NCBI GenBank assembly: GCA_015655165.1
Contig: JAATFN010000002.1
Span: 1 to 18,001 of the forward strand
DNA from: Betaproteobacteria bacterium
Lineage (GTDB): Bacteria > Pseudomonadota > Gammaproteobacteria > Burkholderiales > Burkholderiaceae_D
Direction: 5' to 3'
DNA: 18,001 nucleotides
Below, one piece after another: positions 1,428 to 18,001 of this stretch. The position numbers and the translations under genes were made by a program. The notes beneath the pieces are model-generated. The model was not told the origin of the DNA and did not search any database. It saw only the letters and a program-made list of their open reading frames with translations. Each line of letters begins with the position of its first letter. Positions within the stretch are counted from its first letter, which is position 1.

Positions 1428-2216
1428 CTATGGATGCGTTAAGCTGTTGGCCACGCGCATCAGGTTGTCGGGGCTAATATGAATCACACCATGCCCTGGA
1501 ATATCGATATCGTTGATGATTGCCAATGAGATGGCGATGACCAGCGGGAAGACAAGCAGTAAGCCACGATGTCCACGTGTGCTTGCACTGTATCCGATGA
1601 GAATGTTGCAAAAAACAGAAAGCATGGCCATCAAGCTCCATGCTGCTGTCGGTATCTGACTGTGCCAGCCGGCACTGGTACGTTCATAAGAATTCAATAA
1701 ATCCGCCATCCCGGCCAGCACGAACGCCGAGATCGGGTTCTGTTGTGACAGTGTGCCGTGAACGGTAGTGTTCCACGCGTCATGTTTGAGTAATGTCGAT
1801 GCGCGTTCTAATGCTGCAAGTTGTTCGTTATTATTGCTGGCAGTGTAAAAAAGTAAACGCTGGTCAAGATACTGCGATAGGGTTTGCCTAAGTATATTGG
1901 CATCTTCTGAAGCAAGCAGGTCAGTACGTGCGAAAACAGATGCAATGGCGGTCGCTTCTGTTGCTTCGTTGGCTTGGCGGGTGTTATATCCATTGATGGC
2001 CATCGAAAACGCGAAACCGATCACAAGGCCTAGTAATGTGAGTGTGGCACCAAGCACTACGCGTACATCATCACCTGAGTTTGCTTCGGAATTCTGCAAG
2101 CGTTTGGCAACTGCAACGCCACACAACGTGGCACACACGAACCCCAAGAGGGATAAACATAAGAGATCCCATGAATAGGGAATGAAACCAGCAAGATGTT
2201 GAGTAAAGTTAGCCAT
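1428..2216 (-). CDS. DUF4239 / bestrophin-like membrane protein
   Basis: This is a 262-aa integral membrane protein with the layout of the DUF4239 (bestrophin-like) family. Hydrophobic segments occur near the N-terminus (WDLLCLSLLGFVCATLCGVAVA) and at LGATLTLLGLVIGFAFSMAI. Then comes the family-typical soluble stretch NEATEATAIASVFARTDLL with YLDQRLLFY. Two C-terminal membrane segments follow, with a polar RGHRGLLLVFPLVIAISL junction and the IINDIDIPGHGVIHIS tail. Function is unknown; an ion-channel-like role is only suggested by distant fold similarity. A longer reading from GTG at 2270 (280 aa) or ATG at 2252 is possible. ATG at 2216 is preferred because the membrane protein proper starts there, but no start has a good ribosome site. 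It is a lone minus-strand gene, convergent with tRNA-Thr. Confidence 0.8.
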   Translation of the reverse strand: MANFTQHLAGFIPYSWDLLCLSLLGFVCATLCGVAVAKRLQNSEANSGDDVRVVLGATLTLLGLVIGFAFSMAINGYNTRQANEATEATAIASVFARTDLLASEDANILRQTLSQYLDQRLLFYTASNNNEQLAALERASTLLKHDAWNTTVHGTLSQQNPISAFVLAGMADLLNSYERTSAGWHSQIPTAAWSLMAMLSVFCNILIGYSASTRGHRGLLLVFPLVIAISLAIINDIDIPGHGVIHISPDNLMRVANSLTHP

Positions 2217-2709
2217 ATAGTATTTGCCAGTGTTAAGTGACCGAGTGTGCATTAGCCATGTTAGGTACACAGCTATTGAGAATGTCGCTTGTCAATTCCT
2301 GCATTATTATCTCTTATACCAAACAAATTGCGTCATATTCTCACTGATGTTTTGCAAACACATCTAGATGTCCTTATGACAAACCGCGGTTACTCGTTTT
2401 CCAGTGATCAGTACTCCGCTATTGGCAACTGCTGTGATGGTCGGATGAGTTTTCTGATACAGATAGATTTATAGTGATGCAATACATGGTATTGAGTAAA
2501 AGATGCGAATGAAGTGAAGCATCGTGTACATGTATCGATCCGCTTGACCTATCATTGCTGTCTGCCAGTGTAGAAAATCAGTATGATCGAAAATATTATC
2601 ATGCAGGGTGGCTTCACGGTTTGCCATGACACTTTACATCGTCGGCAGTCATAGCGATTGAAATGGTGACCTGAACGTCGATCAAGACATGCGTCTTGAA
2701 AATATTCTA

Positions 2710-2730
2710 TGCAGCATGCGGCATGCTGCA
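2710..2730. repeat. Inverted repeat with 10-base arms
   Basis: TGCAGCATGC and its exact complement flank a single G. It lies about 200 bases before gltS and has no T-tract beside it. It could be a regulator site or a hairpin in a leader RNA; nothing assigns it. Confidence 0.45.
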
Positions 2731-2871
2731 ACTGTCTATTCTATTGGCAACAAGCCAATGCAAAAAATGCTTTTAATCGTTACGCAGAATCTGAGTTAAC
2801 CAGTCACTATAGGATTGGTTCTATTTTTATGCTTCCAAGTATTGGGTAGATGCTAGCGGGGAATGGCATCT

Positions 2872-2877
2872 TATAAT
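2872..2877 (+). promoter_or_regulatory. Possible -10 box for gltS
   Basis: A perfect TATAAT lies 54 bases before the gltS ATG. No good -35 box is present at 16-18 bases spacing, so the promoter may be weak or activator-dependent. The gltS ribosome site GGGGA is at 2921-2925. Confidence 0.35.
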
Positions 2878-2931
2878 ATGCGCTCGCAATGATCGTGTGT
2901 TTGACCAATCAATATTTTATGGGGACACCTG

Positions 2932-4134
2932 ATGAGCATGCATATCAACGCTTTCCACAGTTTTACACTGGCAATTATCTTGTTGTTTATCGGTAAGGCA
3001 GTAACACGCCGCTTTGATGTGTTTTATCGCTACAGCATACCAGAGCCCGTCGTTGGTGGTTTCTTGTGCGCAACTGCTATTGGCTTGTTATATGGTTTTT
3101 CCGGTATCCAGATCAGCTTTGATCTGGAAGTACGCGATATGTTGTTACTCTATTTCTTTGCAGGCATCGGCTTGCAATCAGATGTCAAAACACTGCGCTC
3201 AGGCGGTCAACCATTAATGATATTGTTGATATTGGCCAGTATCTTTATTGTGCTGCAAAATTTACTCGGTATGGGTGTGGCTACTGTATTTGGCATGCCG
3301 GCAGGCGCAGGGTTAATGACGGGGTCGGTATCATTGGTGGGTGGTGTTGGTACTACGTTGGCGTGGGCACCAGAATTGGCGAGTCGGCTCGGGATTGGCA
3401 ATGCGTTAGAAATCGGCATGGCCAGCAACATGGTGGGATTGACAGCTGCTTGTGTGATTGGCGGGCCAGTGGCCGGTTACCTGATGCGTAAATACGGTAT
3501 TGCACCACCCATTCACAAACGACCTGATATCGGTGTATTACAAGGCGAAAAAGAAACAGGACTGGATTATTACGGTGTATTACGCGCCTGGTTGTATTTG
3601 AATCTGGCATTGATCGGTGGTGTCGGTATCAATCGTGGATTTGAACTGGCAGGATTGCATTTGCCGGAATTTGTCAGTTGCCTGATTGCCGGTATCGTCT
3701 TGCGTAATGTCTTCATGCCTTTGTTGACACACCGAGAGCATCCGTTTCATTGGTCTGGTATTAAAAGTGGATTGGCGCTGATTTCCGATATTTGTCTGGG
3801 CGTCTTTTTGACGATGGCATTAATGGGGATCCAGTGGTGGGTTTTGCAGGGAGTAATGGGGTTTGTCTTTACGACGCTTGCGTTGCAGATTCTACTGGCC
3901 ATCATGTATACCTTGTATGTTGTGTTCCGGTGTATGGGGAAAGATTATGAGGCGGTAGTGACCAGTGCCGGGTTTGGAGGAATTGCATTGGGTTCGACAG
4001 CCACAGCAGTTGCGAACATGACCGCTGTGACTAGTACCTATGGTGCGGCACATAGATCATTTGTGGTGGTGCCTTTAGTGTGCGGATTTTTTATCGACTT
4101 GGTGAATGCTGCTGTGATTACGGCATTGTTGTAG
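2932..4134 (+). CDS. gltS: Sodium/glutamate symporter GltS
   Basis: An inner-membrane Na+-coupled glutamate uptake carrier. The 400-aa product matches the usual GltS length and is hydrophobic throughout. Family marks are YSIPEPVVGGF near residue 35, the first re-entrant-loop region GSVSLVGGVGTTLAWAPE, NMVGLTAACVIGGPVAGYL after it, and the C-terminal mirror segment TSAGFGGIALGSTATAVANM followed by HRSFVVVPLVCGFFIDLVN. The ATG start has a GGGGA ribosome site 6 bases upstream. The gene is monocistronic, with a terminator at 4170-4197. It is not obviously linked to the microcin-like locus beyond sharing that terminator with the divergent-operon precursor gene. Confidence 0.95.
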   Translation: MSMHINAFHSFTLAIILLFIGKAVTRRFDVFYRYSIPEPVVGGFLCATAIGLLYGFSGIQISFDLEVRDMLLLYFFAGIGLQSDVKTLRSGGQPLMILLILASIFIVLQNLLGMGVATVFGMPAGAGLMTGSVSLVGGVGTTLAWAPELASRLGIGNALEIGMASNMVGLTAACVIGGPVAGYLMRKYGIAPPIHKRPDIGVLQGEKETGLDYYGVLRAWLYLNLALIGGVGINRGFELAGLHLPEFVSCLIAGIVLRNVFMPLLTHREHPFHWSGIKSGLALISDICLGVFLTMALMGIQWWVLQGVMGFVFTTLALQILLAIMYTLYVVFRCMGKDYEAVVTSAGFGGIALGSTATAVANMTAVTSTYGAAHRSFVVVPLVCGFFIDLVNAAVITALL

Positions 4135-4169: not shown

Positions 4170-4197
4170 AAAAAAGGCTGCTCACGCAGCCTTTTTT
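4170..4197. terminator. Bidirectional terminator between gltS and the precursor gene
   Basis: GGCTGC pairs with GCAGCC around TCAC. Six A residues before and six T residues after extend the stem and supply a T-tract on both strands. It ends gltS on the plus strand and the peptide precursor gene on the minus strand. Confidence 0.9.
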
Positions 4198-4217: not shown

Positions 4218-4502
4218 TTATTTCTTCGCCATGTTTTCCAGACCTGCATGCATCAAGGCACTACCAACTTTTTTGTTGGCAGTATCGGCACCTTGTTTGA
4301 TAGCTTCCTTGTTGTTGTCGATGGCTTCACCAGCTGCAGTACCAAGGCCAGCACCGATTGCCGCGCCAATAATTGTACCAACCGGACCAGCAACAGCAGT
4401 ACCAATGGCAGCACCAACACCTGTGCCTGCACTTGCACTTGTTGCAGTAGCAACAGAACCACCAGTGACGTTATCAAGATTTTTGTTTGTTAATTTTTTC
4501 AT
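4218..4502 (-). CDS. Double-glycine-leader microcin-like bacteriocin precursor
   Basis: The 94-aa product starts with a textbook double-glycine leader, MKKLTNKNLDNVTGG. It has the same spacing of hydrophobic residues as the microcin V leader (M-x-x-LT-x-x-x-LD-x-V-x-GG). Cutting after GG would release a 79-residue peptide. Its core is almost entirely Ala/Gly/Val/Ile with repeated GxxxG-type spacing (GAAIGTAVAGPVGTIIGAAIG), a glycine zipper expected to insert into membranes. A polar, Lys-containing tail (NNKEAIKQGADTANKK ... ENMAKK) follows. There are no cysteines and no Ser-rich siderophore-type C-terminus, so it resembles class IIa rather than class IIb microcins. GGAG lies 7 bases before the ATG. 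It is divergent from a C39-peptidase exporter operon, which is its likely processing and export machine. Antibacterial activity is inferred; a signalling or other secreted role is possible. Confidence 0.85.
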   Translation of the reverse strand: MKKLTNKNLDNVTGGSVATATSASAGTGVGAAIGTAVAGPVGTIIGAAIGAGLGTAAGEAIDNNKEAIKQGADTANKKVGSALMHAGLENMAKK

Positions 4503-4981
4503 TTAATTACTCCAAGAAATGAATGAACTTTAGTTAGAGTTGATGGAGGTGGGATGGTTCGGGCTAATTTGAGAGGATTCTGATTTATTTGGTTGTTGGT
4601 ATTGTGTTTTTATTAAAAAATAAACTGTCAGAAAGACAATCCCAGAGCGTATCTTGGCAATTAAGAACATCATCATGATCAGATTTCCTGCCAGATATCG
4701 AGGGCGTTATACATTGTGAACATGTTGCTTTATATCGCACAGACATATGAACGTAATGCAAGTCATGACGATGTCTTGCGCATATGAAGCAGGACAAAAG
4801 AATGATTAATTACAAGACAATAGGGAAGAATTGAACAAATGAAACAAAGTAATATCTGATCAGATAACAAGTGTTGTTTAAGGTATTGATATTACCCCCT
4901 CATGCTACTGTAGCATTGCCATTTGATGATGATATGACATGATTATGATGTGTGCATGCAAAGAAAAAGTGCGCTTACCTT
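4503..4981. other. Divergent intergenic region of the microcin-like locus
   Basis: AT-rich stretch between the precursor gene (-) and the exporter operon (+), which must carry promoters for both. I found no convincing gene in it. In particular there is no small ORF with membrane segments that would suit a microcin immunity protein. A 70-codon minus-strand frame (4585-4797) is open but polar, Cys/His-rich, and without a ribosome site or family likeness. The right half carries several dyad symmetries, listed separately. Confidence 0.5.
4853..4916. promoter_or_regulatory. Cluster of dyad symmetries upstream of the exporter operon
   Basis: Three symmetric elements lie within 64 bases: a perfect 14-base palindrome TATCTGATCAGATA (4853-4866), AACAA-GTG-TTGTT (4866-4878), and ATGCTA-CTG-TAGCAT (4902-4916). 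A weaker GGTA...TACC dyad lies between them (4882-4896). They sit 65-130 bases before the fusion-protein start, a place suited to operators or a leader-RNA structure. No regulator is identified. Confidence 0.35.
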
Positions 4982-6253
4982 ATGCCAGATAATCAGATTT
5001 TTCGTAAAGAGGCAATTGACCACCAGAAAGCAAAATGGTCAGGTAAGGCTATTCTTACTTCTGGTTTTCCTGCATCGATCATTGCTGTGGTGTGCTGTTT
5101 GACAATCATGGCATTGGTTGCATTTATGAAATATGGATCGTATACCCAGCGCATTAATGTGCCATCTGAAGTGATCACGCAACCGCATACGATTCAAATT
5201 TTCTCGCGGCAACAGGGGATTATTTTCAAACAATTTATTGAGGCGCCCCATATCATTAAAAAGGGGGATCGTATTTATCAGATCGATGTCAGTCGTATTA
5301 CAAGGTCCGGTAATGTGAGTGATAGTGCCGTCGATGCGATCGAGCAACAGATTGCGCAAATCGACAACATGATGATCAAGCTGGAAGATGATAAACAATC
5401 GACATTGATCAATCTGAATAAACAATTAAACCAATATATTGCGACACAAAAAGAATCTGAAAAACAGATGGATAATACACGACGTGCTATGGATACGACA
5501 CGTCGTACAATGGAGAATTATGAAGAATATTTACGTCAGGGATTGGTGACGAAAGAACAAGTCAGTAATCAGCGGGCGCAGTTTTATCAGCAACAAAGTT
5601 CCTATCAGAGTATTTCTACCCAAGTCAGTCAGCAGGGGATGGAAATTACCAAATTGAGAAGTGATATTACTACACGTGGCATTAATTTTGAGAACCAGTT
5701 ATCCCAATACAAAAACCAGCGTAGTGAATTACAAAAGCAATTAACAGAAGCCGATGCTACAGGTGTCCTGTTTGTTGATAGTCCTGTGGATGGCCGTCTT
5801 GCTGCCGCTTCAGTGACAACCGGCCAAATGGTCAATGCTGGAGACTTGCTTGCGCAGATTGTACCGACGATCGATTATGCTTACCAACTGGTGTTATGGC
5901 TGCCCAACAGCGCTGTCCCATATGTGGCTGTGAAAGATAACATCAAGATTCGTTATGATGCATTCCCGTTTGAACAGTTCGGGCAATTTTCCGGGAAGAT
6001 TATTTCCTTGGCCAATGTGCCGTCTACGGCACAGGAAATGTCCAATTACACAAACGCACCGCGTGATGGACAACCTTATTACAAAGCAATTGCGCAACTT
6101 GATAAAGACAAATTTACCTATAAACAAAAGTCGCTTTTACTCTCGAGTGGTATGAAGGCCCAGGTAACACTTTTTCTGGAAGAAAGACCGTTATATCAGT
6201 GGATGTTATCTCCATTTTATGACCTTGGAAAAGGATTGGCGGGCGACAAATGA
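4982..6253 (+). CDS. CvaA/HlyD-type membrane fusion protein of the microcin-like exporter
   Basis: The periplasmic adaptor of a type I secretion system, joining the ABC transporter to an outer-membrane TolC channel. The 423-aa product begins MPDNQIFRKEAIDHQKAKW and has one N-terminal membrane anchor (about residues 28-49). A long Gln-rich coiled-coil region runs roughly 105-255. A lipoyl-like segment VDSPVDGRLAAASVTTGQMVNAGD follows, then LWLPNSAVPYV and the C-terminal QWMLSPFYDLGKG that is typical of CvaA. Length is close to CvaA (about 413 aa). An in-frame GTG at 4952 would add ten residues. ATG 4982 is preferred because it places the FRKEAxxHQKxKW motif at the N-terminus as in homologues, though the ribosome site is weak. 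The stop overlaps the next start (ATGA), showing a translationally coupled operon with the ABC transporter. Absence of a nearby tolC fits use of a shared chromosomal TolC. Confidence 0.92.
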   Translation: MPDNQIFRKEAIDHQKAKWSGKAILTSGFPASIIAVVCCLTIMALVAFMKYGSYTQRINVPSEVITQPHTIQIFSRQQGIIFKQFIEAPHIIKKGDRIYQIDVSRITRSGNVSDSAVDAIEQQIAQIDNMMIKLEDDKQSTLINLNKQLNQYIATQKESEKQMDNTRRAMDTTRRTMENYEEYLRQGLVTKEQVSNQRAQFYQQQSSYQSISTQVSQQGMEITKLRSDITTRGINFENQLSQYKNQRSELQKQLTEADATGVLFVDSPVDGRLAAASVTTGQMVNAGDLLAQIVPTIDYAYQLVLWLPNSAVPYVAVKDNIKIRYDAFPFEQFGQFSGKIISLANVPSTAQEMSNYTNAPRDGQPYYKAIAQLDKDKFTYKQKSLLLSSGMKAQVTLFLEERPLYQWMLSPFYDLGKGLAGDK

Positions 6254-8346
6254 ATAAAACCGTATTAGAGAGTGCATTGCAAAGATTGCAATTCGGTTTT
6301 CATCGCCAAGTGCCGCAGATACTGCAATCCGAATCATCTGAATGTGGTCTCGCATGTGTTGCGATGGTTTCCAGTTACTTTGGCTATGATACTGATTTGC
6401 ATAATCTGCGTCAGCGTTTCGGTATTTCATCTCATGGAGCGACGCTGGCACAATTAGTCGAAATAGCCAACGAATTGCAATTGCATACACGTCCGTTGTC
6501 TTTGGACATGGATGAAATCAAGGAATTGCGCTTGCCTTGTATTATGCACTGGAATATGAACCACTTTGTAGTGCTAGTGGAGGTGAGTAGCCATCATTAT
6601 GTCGTGCATGATCCTGCGTTCGGAAGGCGAAAATTACAAAAAGAAGAATTTTCAAAGCATTTTACCGGTGTTGCATTAGAACTCTGGCCAAATAGTAAAT
6701 TCAAAAAGGCCAGGCAGCATAGTAGTTTACGATTCGGAAAAATGCTCAGTAATGTCACTGGTCTCAATGCTACTCTGCTGAAGATATTTTCCTTATCGCT
6801 ATTAATCGAAGTGATTAATTTGTTGTTGCCTGTTGGTACGCAACTGGTGATGGACCATGTCATTATTGCCGAAGATCATAATCTATTACTGCTTATTTGC
6901 CTTGGATTGCTATTTTTCATCCTGTTTCGAAGTTTTGTCGGTATGTTTCGCGCCTGGATTTCGATTGTGATGGGAGTTTTAATCGATGTGCAGTGGAAAG
7001 CAGGATTGTTTGATCATTTATTGCGGCTGCCACTCGATTTTTTTGAAAAAAGAAAACTCGGCGATATTCAGGCACGCTTTTATTCCCTGGATGTGGTGCG
7101 GTCTACATTAACGACAGGTGTTGTTGACGGGATCATTGACAGTATCATGACCATTGGTCTATTTGTCATGATGTATTTATATGGTGGATGGTTGGTCTGG
7201 GTTGTATGTGGTTTTACTGTGATATACATGATCTTGCGTTTTTCAACCTATTATTACTACCGTCAGGCTTCTGAAGAAAAAATTGTCAAGGCTGCAAAAG
7301 CCAATTCACACTTCATGGAGACATTGTATGGTGTGAGTACATTAAAAGCATTGGGTCTGGCACCGTCGAGGCTGCAACAGTGGTTAAATCTGACTATCGA
7401 TACGGATAATGCCGGTATTCGTATGACACGGTTTGACATGATGTTTAGTGGTGCCAATACATTGATTTCAACATTGGACCAGTTGTTGATTTTATGGTTG
7501 GGTGCATCTCATGTGATGGATGACACATTAACACTCGGTATGTTTGTGGCCTTCAATGCATATCGTGGATCGTTTTCCGAACGTTCTGGTGCTTTGATTA
7601 ATCTTGTACTGCAGCTACGTATGCTTTCCTTGCATAGTGATCGTTTGTCAGACATAGTTTTTACAGAACCGGAAGTCATGAAAACATCGCGTAAATTGAT
7701 CGAGAAGGGAAAACCTGCATCTTTTGAAGTGAAAGATCTGGCATTTGAATATGACAGTATTTCCAAACCGATATTGTCTGGTTTGAATTTATTGGTCAAA
7801 GCTGGCGAGAGTGTGGCAATTACCGGTACATCCGGTATCGGTAAAACGACGTTAATGAAAATCATGGCAGGTTTATTGACACCATCAGGTGGCGTGATTC
7901 TTTTTAACGGTATTGATATACATAATGCCGGCTTGAATAATTACCGTAAATGCATTGCCTGTGTTTTACAAGACGATAAATTGTTTTCTGGGTCTATTGC
8001 GGAAAATATTATCGGTTTTTCGGAAGAGAAAGATGAAGAACAGATGATTGAATGCGCCAAACAATGCAATATCCATAATGAGATTATGGATATGCCTATG
8101 GGGTATGAGACATTGTTAAGTGAATTGGGTGGCGGTTTGTCTGGCGGACAAAAGCAACGTCTCTTGATCGCACGTGCCTTATATCGTCGTCCTAATTTGT
8201 TATTCCTTGATGAGGCAACCAGCCACCTTGATCTGGACAATGAAGCGCATATCAATGCATCTATTGCAGCGCTGAATATTACCCGTATTTTTATTGCGCA
8301 TAGACCGTCAACCATTGAATCAGCTGACCGGGTAATTAAACTTTAA
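6250..8346 (+). CDS. CvaB-type C39-peptidase ABC transporter (PCAT), bacteriocin exporter
   Basis: An inner-membrane ATP-driven exporter that also cuts double-glycine leaders. The 698-aa product has the full three-part layout. The N-terminal C39 peptidase has oxyanion Gln26, catalytic Cys32 in SECGLACVAM, His105 in MNHFVVLV and Asp121 in HDPAFG, the positions expected for CvaB. The transmembrane domain runs about 165-450 (VINLLLPVGTQLVMDHVI; LPLDFFEKRKLGDIQARF). The nucleotide-binding domain has Walker A GTSGIGKTT (526-534), Q-loop VLQDDKLFSGSIAENI, signature LSGGQ (630-634), Walker B LLFLDE with Glu655, and His684. The D-loop reads SHLD rather than the common SALD. All catalytic residues are present, so it should be active. 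It is coupled by ATGA overlap to the fusion protein. Its likely substrate is the divergent precursor at 4218-4502. No clear terminator follows. Confidence 0.95.
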   Translation: MNKTVLESALQRLQFGFHRQVPQILQSESSECGLACVAMVSSYFGYDTDLHNLRQRFGISSHGATLAQLVEIANELQLHTRPLSLDMDEIKELRLPCIMHWNMNHFVVLVEVSSHHYVVHDPAFGRRKLQKEEFSKHFTGVALELWPNSKFKKARQHSSLRFGKMLSNVTGLNATLLKIFSLSLLIEVINLLLPVGTQLVMDHVIIAEDHNLLLLICLGLLFFILFRSFVGMFRAWISIVMGVLIDVQWKAGLFDHLLRLPLDFFEKRKLGDIQARFYSLDVVRSTLTTGVVDGIIDSIMTIGLFVMMYLYGGWLVWVVCGFTVIYMILRFSTYYYYRQASEEKIVKAAKANSHFMETLYGVSTLKALGLAPSRLQQWLNLTIDTDNAGIRMTRFDMMFSGANTLISTLDQLLILWLGASHVMDDTLTLGMFVAFNAYRGSFSERSGALINLVLQLRMLSLHSDRLSDIVFTEPEVMKTSRKLIEKGKPASFEVKDLAFEYDSISKPILSGLNLLVKAGESVAITGTSGIGKTTLMKIMAGLLTPSGGVILFNGIDIHNAGLNNYRKCIACVLQDDKLFSGSIAENIIGFSEEKDEEQMIECAKQCNIHNEIMDMPMGYETLLSELGGGLSGGQKQRLLIARALYRRPNLLFLDEATSHLDLDNEAHINASIAALNITRIFIAHRPSTIESADRVIKL

Positions 8347-16119: not shown

Positions 16120-16884
16120 TTAGCCCAGCAGAATATCTGACGAATTGGCAGAACGCGTTCCCGGAACAGGTCGATTGCTTTGCCCGTGATAGGCAAATAC
16201 AACCGAGGATTTAATACTATTGCTGTTGTTTTTTCCTGCTGCGTGAAACAGCCCACTATGAAACAGCACCACATCGCCTTGTTGCAAGGGCAGCGGTACA
16301 CCTTGTGCAAAGAGTCGCTGGTTGGCTGCTACATCCGGGCGTAAAAAGTCCAGTTCGTCCATTTGTTCGGGAGTGAGTGTCAGTAAATGGGAGCCCGGGA
16401 TGAAATGCAGTCCACCGTTTGTTGCATTTTCCGGGCCCAAGGCAAGCCATACCGAAATCAAAGCGTTGTGCGGGAAAGACCAGTAACGGATATCGCGGTG
16501 CCAGCCTGTTGCCGTACCGAATGTCGGATGTTTGGTCATAATGCAGTTATGATGCGCAAGCGTAATACAGGTCGGTTCTTCAAACAACTGGTTCAGAATA
16601 GCGACTAAATCAGGGTCACTTGCCCACGCCTGATAGACAGCATGACGGTGCCATGCATCGCGCAAACGCCTGATCGTTCGCCCGCCAATACTGTCCAACG
16701 ACTTTGGGGCGCCGGCATAGCCGACGTCGGTTTCATATTCCAGCGGTGCTATTTCACCTGCCAGATGCGCCTCGGTGGTCATCAGCATCTGGTCGCATAT
16801 AGATGCTGGCACGCGTTTTGGTAATAACAGGTAACCCGATTGCTTAAATGATTCAATCTGCAGGTTGGAGAGCTGCGCTTGCAT
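16120..16884 (-). CDS. Phytanoyl-CoA dioxygenase (PhyH) family protein
   Basis: A non-heme Fe(II)/2-oxoglutarate-dependent oxygenase of the PhyH family; the substrate is unknown. The 254-aa product has an N-terminal [13 protein letters not shown] segment typical of the family, the metal-binding His129-x-Asp131 in [21 protein letters not shown] on the core strand, and a distal ligand His214 in [14 protein letters not shown]. The triad is complete, so activity is expected. The ATG start is supported by AAGGA five to six bases upstream. It overlaps the 3' end of uvrA by 32 bases in another frame; a later start would remove the conserved N-terminal segment. It lies between uvrA and kdsD, 90 bases from the latter. 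Confidence 0.88.
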
Positions 16885-18001
16885 GACGTCCTTTGTTGCG
16901 TGCTGGTGGCTTCAATAGCGGTATTAAATATTTGCCGGTGACACTGGCGGGATTGGCTGCAACTTCCTCGGGTGTTCCTGTGGCAATTATTTGTCCGCCA
17001 CCGGCACCACCTTCAGGCCCTAAGTCGACAATCCAGTCGGCCGTTTTAATGACATCCAGATTGTGCTCGATAATCACAACGGTGTTGCCCTGGTCTCGCA
17101 AGCGCTGGATGACTCTTAACAGCAATGCAATATCGTGAAAATGCAGACCTGTCGTCGGTTCGTCCAGAATATACAGTGTACGCCCGGTGTCGCGCTTGGA
17201 TAACTCTAGCGACAGTTTGACGCGCTGTGCTTCGCCGCCCGACAATGTGGTTGCACTTTGCCCCAAGCGGATATAACCCAGACCGACATCCAGTAATGTT
17301 TGTAATTTACGTGCAATGACCGGAACAGGTTTGAAAAATTCATGGGCTTCTTCGACCGTCATGTCCAGAATCTGGTGAATATTCTTGCCTTTGTAATGGA
17401 TTTCCAGTGTTTCACGGTTATAACGCTTGCCATGACATACATCACAAGGCACATACACATCCGGCAAGAAGTGCATCTCGACTTTAATGACGCCATCACC
17501 CTGACATGCCTCGCAGCGGCCACCCTTGACGTTAAACGAGAAACGCCCTGCTGAATAGCCGCGCTCTTTAGATGCGGGTACTGTCGAGAATAAATCGCGA
17601 ATCGGGGTAAATAAGCCGGTGTAAGTGGCAGGATTTGAACGTGGTGTACGGCCGATCGGAGCCTGATCAACCGAGATGACCTTGTCGAAGTGCTCCAGTC
17701 CTTCAATACTCTCATGTGCTGCCGGTTCTGTTTGCGAGCCGTATAAATGTTGGGATGCGGCAGGGAAGAGTGTATCGTTGACCAGCTTGGATTTGCCCGA
17801 GCCCGATACACCTGTGATACAGGTTAATAAGCCCACAGGCAGTGTCAGGGTGACATGTTTCAGGTTATTGCCGCTTGCGCCACGAATGATTAACTGCCGA
17901 TTCGGGTCGGATAGGGTACGTTTTTTAGGGACATCAATTGCCAAGGTCCCATTCAGATATTGCGCTGTCAGTGACCTTTTGCTTTTGAGGATATCGGCAA
18001 G
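16853..18001 (-). CDS. uvrA: Excinuclease ABC subunit A, C-terminal part (5' end outside window)
   Basis: UvrA is the DNA damage sensor of nucleotide excision repair and loads UvrB. The frame is open to the window edge; 382 C-terminal residues are visible, beginning inside [16 protein letters not shown], so the TTG at 17944 is internal. It holds the second ATPase module: Walker A in [24 protein letters not shown], the zinc module CEAC ... CDVC (19 residues between the pairs), signature [11 protein letters not shown], Walker [13 protein letters not shown], and [25 protein letters not shown]. The residue after the Walker A Ser is Lys (codon 17786-17788) where Thr or Ser is usual. The C-terminal tail after TGKYL is longer and basic. 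Its 3' end overlaps the PhyH gene. Confidence 0.97.

Follow-up and report, generated by a model that had tools for sequence, protein, structure and literature searches.

The 18,001-nucleotide stretch studied here (the window), from a betaproteobacterium of the order Burkholderiales (GenBank assembly GCA_015655165.1), carries a small gene for a double-glycine-leader peptide beside genes for a membrane fusion protein and a peptidase-containing ATP-binding cassette (ABC) transporter. Several described systems resemble this locus. By analogy, the closest worked case for the window peptide is that of CdzC/D of Caulobacter, glycine-zipper proteins that leave by type I export, are held on the cell surface and kill on contact; the system includes an immunity protein in the inner membrane (PMC5380434). 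The screen for Cdz-like candidates in the same paper took proteins of 60–151 amino acids (aa) with a leader ending in G[G/A/S] that had a type I secretion system no more than 10 kb away and contained one or two glycine zippers, with proline or charge at their flanks but not inside them. Its candidates included Burkholderia cepacia, many of them were called likely horizontally acquired, and glycine zippers were described as favouring aggregation (PMC5380434). The C39 domains of exporters of this kind cut after GG or GA, with export via TolC (PMC9746304, PMC10233263), and there is a known precedent for one exporter being common to two co-occurring microcins (PMC9746304). The gonococcal Nap peptides, which also have double-glycine motifs, promote autolysis, and no antimicrobial activity was detected for them; in their island the C39 peptidase is encoded as a gene of its own, along with a FapF-like pore, and the peptides are 16–36 aa long and cationic (PMC11798529).

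The window peptide and its exporter

We favour, with reasonable though limited confidence, the view that the window locus encodes a glycine-zipper bacteriocin-like peptide together with a dedicated processing exporter. The three open reading frames (ORFs) that an earlier note had reported on this DNA were all found, with the peptide gene divergent from the exporter pair. The 94-aa precursor (4218–4502, minus strand) consists of the leader MKKLTNKNLDNVTGG and a predicted 79-aa core of 7.28 kDa that lacks cysteine. The double-glycine leader of 15 codons (4458–4502, minus strand) was recognized by direct reading and by the NCBIfam bacteriocin leader model TIGR01847, which it passed with a margin of 0.1 bit. 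The core has two glycine zippers, the first at residues 26–34 (GTGVGAAIG; 4401–4427, minus strand) and the second at residues 42–58 (GTIIGAAIGAGLGTAAG; 4329–4379, minus strand), which are separated by a stretch with one proline and followed by a polar C-terminal tail of 36 residues that we judge to be short. Compared with the Cdz proteins, the window peptide lies within the screened range of size and leader (94 aa, GG), its two zippers likewise have proline or charge beside them but not within, its C-terminus is polar, and its precursor gene adjoins a type I exporter, inside the 10-kb distance. No counterpart of the immunity protein CdzI was found at the window locus.

The window has one double-glycine-leader ORF, and 40 shuffled windows had a mean of 0.475 and at most two, so such a pattern is weak support by itself. 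This lack of significance, and the further precursors found elsewhere in the genome (see below), would suit a reading in which the exporter mainly serves a substrate from another locus, while the small ORF next to it is decayed or arose by chance. We consider that reading very improbable. A search of 5.8 billion proteins gave six matches at E ≤ 0.001, two of which, P0001 (72% identity) and P0002 (62%), keep the entire leader and core architecture; a Shine-Dalgarno sequence, GGAG, lies 7 nt 5′ of the peptide ATG (4510–4513, minus strand); and a comparison of exporter and precursor co-occurrence found a small adjacent double-glycine ORF at all ten other exporters of the window's set in the exporter tree described below (nine by pattern, one by eye). 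Based on the homologues with leader and core, the Pfam and NCBIfam matches, the Shine-Dalgarno sequence and the adjoining exporter, we regard the peptide gene as real, and the leader-bearing precursor of the earlier note was borne out by the homologues.

In Pfam, the window peptide passed Gly-zipper_Omp (28.5, cut-off 25) and barely passed Bacteriocin_IIc (PF10439; 27.5, cut-off 27.1). The latter was below its cut-off for P0001 (25.0), P0002 (23.2) and P0127 (18.5), and was not listed for P0128, P0129 and P0131 in the Pfam scan of homologues. No match to the peptide was found in plasmids by tblastn, and a peptide-alignment scan of viral contigs returned at least 15 loci with partial glycine-zipper matches.

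The fusion protein is of the CvaA/HlyD type (423 aa; 4982–6253, plus strand) and matched HlyD_3 and Biotin_lipoyl_2 above the Pfam cut-offs. Its best start is ATG 4982, not the GTG 4952 of the listed ORF, because its close relatives (L037 and P0008–P0011) begin at the equivalent position (MPDNQIFR). The transporter is of the CvaB/MchF type (698 aa; 6250–8346, plus strand), with a C39 domain at 6313–6696 and Peptidase_C39, ABC_membrane and ABC_tran above the Pfam cut-offs. As had been claimed for this pair, the stop of the fusion protein gene and the start of the transporter gene overlap as ATGA (6250–6253), and the transporter has an intact C39 triad (Cys32, His105 and Asp121), aligning with those of CvaB and MchF. 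The ATPase motifs GTSGIGKT, LSGGQ, LLFLDEAT and IAHR are likewise readable in its translation, and we take them to be Walker A, the LSGGQ motif, the Walker B region and the H-loop.

The locus has the features of class II microcins in its double-glycine leader, its C39 transporter with triad and its linked fusion protein. CvaB and its neighbouring fusion protein were 55.0% and 41.7% identical to the window proteins, and the corresponding values for microcin H47 were 55.3% (MchF) and 41.9%. The triad, the gene overlap and the peptide gene on the strand opposite the exporter are all as in microcin V. However, the window peptide gene is upstream of the exporter pair, whereas in the cvaC-type arrangement it is downstream, the window peptide has no cysteine and a core that is not clearly related, and no Cvi was found. 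The peptide also missed the cut-off of the Pfam MccV model (PF17508; 17.8 bits against 27). The description of the locus as microcin V-like is therefore apt for the exporter (55% identity to CvaB and MchF) and does not extend to the peptide, and the earlier interpretation as a whole was supported in part. In addition, the window peptide does not have the serine-glycine C-terminal tail of microcin H47, and so there is no sign of siderophore-type (class IIb) modification.

A rather unlikely alternative is that the peptide is a classical diffusible class IIa microcin with receptor-mediated entry and an unrecognised immunity protein, possibly the product of a 48-aa ORF (4530–4676, minus strand). 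The core, at 79 aa and 7.28 kDa without cysteine, compares with the 74 aa and 7.22 kDa of microcin N, which has no cysteine (PMC10233263). The 48-aa ORF has one hydrophobic segment, lies directly upstream of the peptide gene on the same strand and is placed as cvi is relative to cvaC. It was the only same-strand immunity candidate; an ORF of this kind was present in 142 of 1000 shuffles, and we rejected it as an immunity gene as unproven.

Lineage of the exporter and its genomic setting

The nearest named relatives of the window exporter were from Tatumella (64% identity), an Ewingella plasmid (61.5%) and an Enterobacteriaceae metagenome-assembled genome (59%). In an exporter tree of 57 rows, made by a quick method without bootstrap and with enterobacterial rows picked for their similarity to the window, the window fell in an 11-row set with ten Enterobacterales (Shimodaira–Hasegawa-like approximate likelihood ratio test, SH-aLRT, 100). 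All 40 Burkholderiales rows were outside this set, as was one Pantoea plasmid row, and a Paracoccus row stood next to the set. The fusion protein was 35.5–46.9% identical to eight enterobacterial comparators of the set and 20.1–24.6% identical to 39 of the 40 Burkholderiales loci, with no match at the remaining locus. Among the matches listed (the best 120 of 939), the highest fusion protein identities were 80–85%, and all the listed matches that bear an organism label were from what we take to be Enterobacterales.

C39-type exporters were common, with matches in 44 of the 399 order genomes at 1e-140 and in 137 of 392 genomes of the family at 1e-160; these counts include the own genome, score the two best candidates per genome and refer to genome sets sampled from larger groups. 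The best identity to the window exporter in the family was 46%, among the matches listed for the 392 genomes, and the C39 domain was found in 36 of 61 genomes, own included. Judging from these sequence comparisons, horizontal acquisition of the exporter is likely, and acquisition from Enterobacterales or from a common donor would be the simplest reading.

The G027 exporter locus (L024) had a G+C content of 39.9%, as against 54–65% in the nine other measured exporter stretches of its genus, and was likely also imported. In the Tatumella relative (L036, 4716–6001) the fusion protein is split over two reading frames, and this locus may be broken or misread.

By profile matches, the cluster that holds the exporter pair is flanked by gltS and, at its opposite end, by a short-chain dehydrogenase. 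The G+C content was 41–42% in the exporter genes, 35% in the intergenic stretch and 45.5% in the window overall. Between gltS and the peptide gene lies an inverted repeat (4170–4197) whose 12-bp arms match perfectly around a 4-nt loop and carry A/T tails, which by direct reading is a probable two-way terminator; it was not listed by the promoter/terminator scan, whose yield was no higher than that of its shuffles. The right half of the window presumably holds rpoN, lptBAC, kdsC/kdsD and uvrA, as read by eye from the ORF translations, and these genes indicate that the cluster is chromosomal. Its earlier assignment to a betaproteobacterial chromosome is plausible; the best RpoN match in the plasmid collection was to Comamonas, at only 45.5%. 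The window is the entire contig C257 (18,001 bases), with a uvrA-like ORF (16853–17944) reaching almost to its end.

Precursors on other contigs and candidate substrates of relatives

Two further precursors of the same core family, C161 and C180, were found on contigs other than that of the window. No C39 exporter was present on the C161 contig (6.1 kb) or the C180 contig (9.6 kb), and a single C39 exporter was seen in the assembly, which is 64% complete. One precursor gene stands by itself, with trpC and a ubiB-like gene as its neighbours, and inspection of the C180 site revealed no convincing ORF beside the peptide gene. The published Cdz screen needed an exporter within 10 kb, and precursors such as these, with none nearby, would be dropped under that rule.

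The TrpE of C180 was 83–85% identical in all 33 other genomes of the genus, 76–83% in three other genomes of the family and 57–69% in 24 of the order, and this links C180 to the same or a near genus. The tetranucleotide correlation with the window core was 0.938 for C180 and 0.866 for C161, as compared with 0.788–0.885 for six other own stretches, 0.647–0.792 for six exporter stretches of the same genus and 0.608–0.815 for eight stretches of other genomes; the test is a rough one, with short pieces and overlapping ranges. In the 120 kb around trpE in three same-genus genomes, none of the 13 window genes counted (the window dehydrogenase was left out) was present at more than 31% identity, the sole match being lptB at the level of ABC proteins in general. 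The other C180 genes tested were present in those regions. If gene order is kept, C180 and the exporter would be separated by more than some 60 kb. We rejected a binning error for both further precursors; against it stand, in the case of C180, TrpE identity, tetranucleotides and gene order and, in the case of C161, only the tetranucleotides and the G+C content (45.1%).

In relatives, the site that follows trpC holds differing genes (L014 8539–9333 and L137–L146), a pattern suggestive of a site at which single genes are gained and lost. The C180-type peptides (P0003 and P0128–P0131) have in common a C-terminal motif near DARKIWPGI, following a variable stretch, and this is a possible recognition or immunity-binding end.

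The peptide profile matched the own genome only among 34 genomes of the genus, and among the 399 genomes of the order the matches better than 1e-8 were its own three only. Wider matches occurred in 21 of the 399, own included, and comprised 157 proteins in the protein search, mostly longer ones among the matches listed (120 of 157). Five of these wider loci were read: four encoded glycine-zipper proteins without a double-glycine leader, and one (L127) had the leader. In G050 (L012/L128), a 384-aa protein has a glycine-zipper stretch and repeats and matched the peptide in the zipper only; the repeats look to us like a lectin-type domain.

A filtered pattern search of the 40 Burkholderiales exporter loci gave candidate substrates in 21, or 20 after one that reads as a glutathione peroxidase was discounted; these counts are without a shuffle control, and some may be chance. 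The cores of the candidates look mostly unrelated to each other. From these sequences, fast-changing cores behind stable exporters seem to be the rule, of which the window would be an instance. At L053, L059, L062 and L075, a single exporter is surrounded by three or four small double-glycine ORFs whose cores differ (at L053, at 2140–3162 and 6952–7263), and many-substrate clusters may be common in Burkholderiales. At L048, two double-glycine precursors (1113–1358 and 6738–6962) flank one exporter, and their glycine/leucine cores (GLLGGLLGTVTGL...) are near-repetitive.

Proposed function and its meaning

The three precursors most likely form a set of membrane-disrupting glycine-zipper bacteriocins that use one common exporter, where export and killing are what we infer. 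The C39 domain of the transporter would cut after Gly14-Gly15, and the 79-residue core would leave via the fusion protein and a channel of the TolC family whose gene lies elsewhere. As packed helices, the two zippers could then enter the inner membrane of nearby bacteria and make it permeable. Delivery may be as a released peptide, in the style of class II microcins, or as aggregates on the producer surface, in the style of Caulobacter CdzC/D. All three precursors would depend on the one C39 exporter that the assembly shows. The assembly also contained eight TolC-family stretches, of which two share a frame, and they make it likely that an outer-membrane channel is encoded somewhere in the genome.

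Several observations weigh against this proposal. None of the TolC-family stretches reached the curated cut-off, and ORF inspection with 1000 shuffles gave no immunity candidate at the window locus that exceeded chance. Glycine zippers are frequent in longer proteins without this leader. At -7 the C180 leader has no hydrophobic residue, and its last two residues are GA; the C161 contig could in principle abut that of the window. Because the assembly is 64% complete, other C39 exporters are possibly missing from it. An AlphaFold model of the peptide, from a nine-row alignment, was too weak to be used (mean predicted local distance difference test, pLDDT, 51.9).

The lack of an above-chance immunity gene at the window locus, and the presence of three paralogues in one assembly, would also suit peptides that are exported by the window pump and are not weapons, acting in autolysis of their own population as the Nap peptides do or forming surface aggregates or matrix. 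The aggregation favoured by glycine zippers (PMC5380434) would fit as well, and the Nap peptides, non-antimicrobial as far as detected (PMC11798529), offer by analogy a warning that such peptides need not be weapons. As in Neisseria, there are several double-glycine peptides in a betaproteobacterial genome, on DNA that in our case is likely to be externally acquired. However, the Nap peptides are clustered in one island, unlike the dispersed precursors here, and are short and cationic, as opposed to predicted net charges of +1, -3 and -1 for the three precursors; they also have their separate peptidase gene and FapF-like pore. The window exporter, moreover, belongs to the lineage of the verified microcin exporters CvaB and MchF. 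We therefore think a non-weapon role unlikely.

Under the bacteriocin reading, the peptide joins a known kind, since exporter sharing (PMC9746304) and Cdz-like candidates from Burkholderia cepacia (PMC5380434) are already in print. What is new here is the two further precursors on contigs without an exporter, an unusual dispersed layout. In what we read of the literature we found no description of this peptide family, or of a Gram-negative exporter with unlinked glycine-zipper precursors.

These findings extend the CvaB/MchF exporter lineage, which in this comparison was held by Enterobacterales, to a genome whose relatives have another type of exporter. The combination of one exporter and precursors unlinked to it can also be put to the test, and it raises the matter of how a cell that makes membrane-active peptides is protected from them when no immunity gene is obvious. 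We put forward, as a tentative proposal that we would not yet expect to prevail, that the acquired CvaAB-type exporter is a hub for dispersed glycine-zipper precursors that travel singly, without an exporter or immunity gene. If this is true, self-protection would be general and not a matter of one cognate gene per peptide, and surveys that demand a nearby exporter would overlook much of the repertoire.
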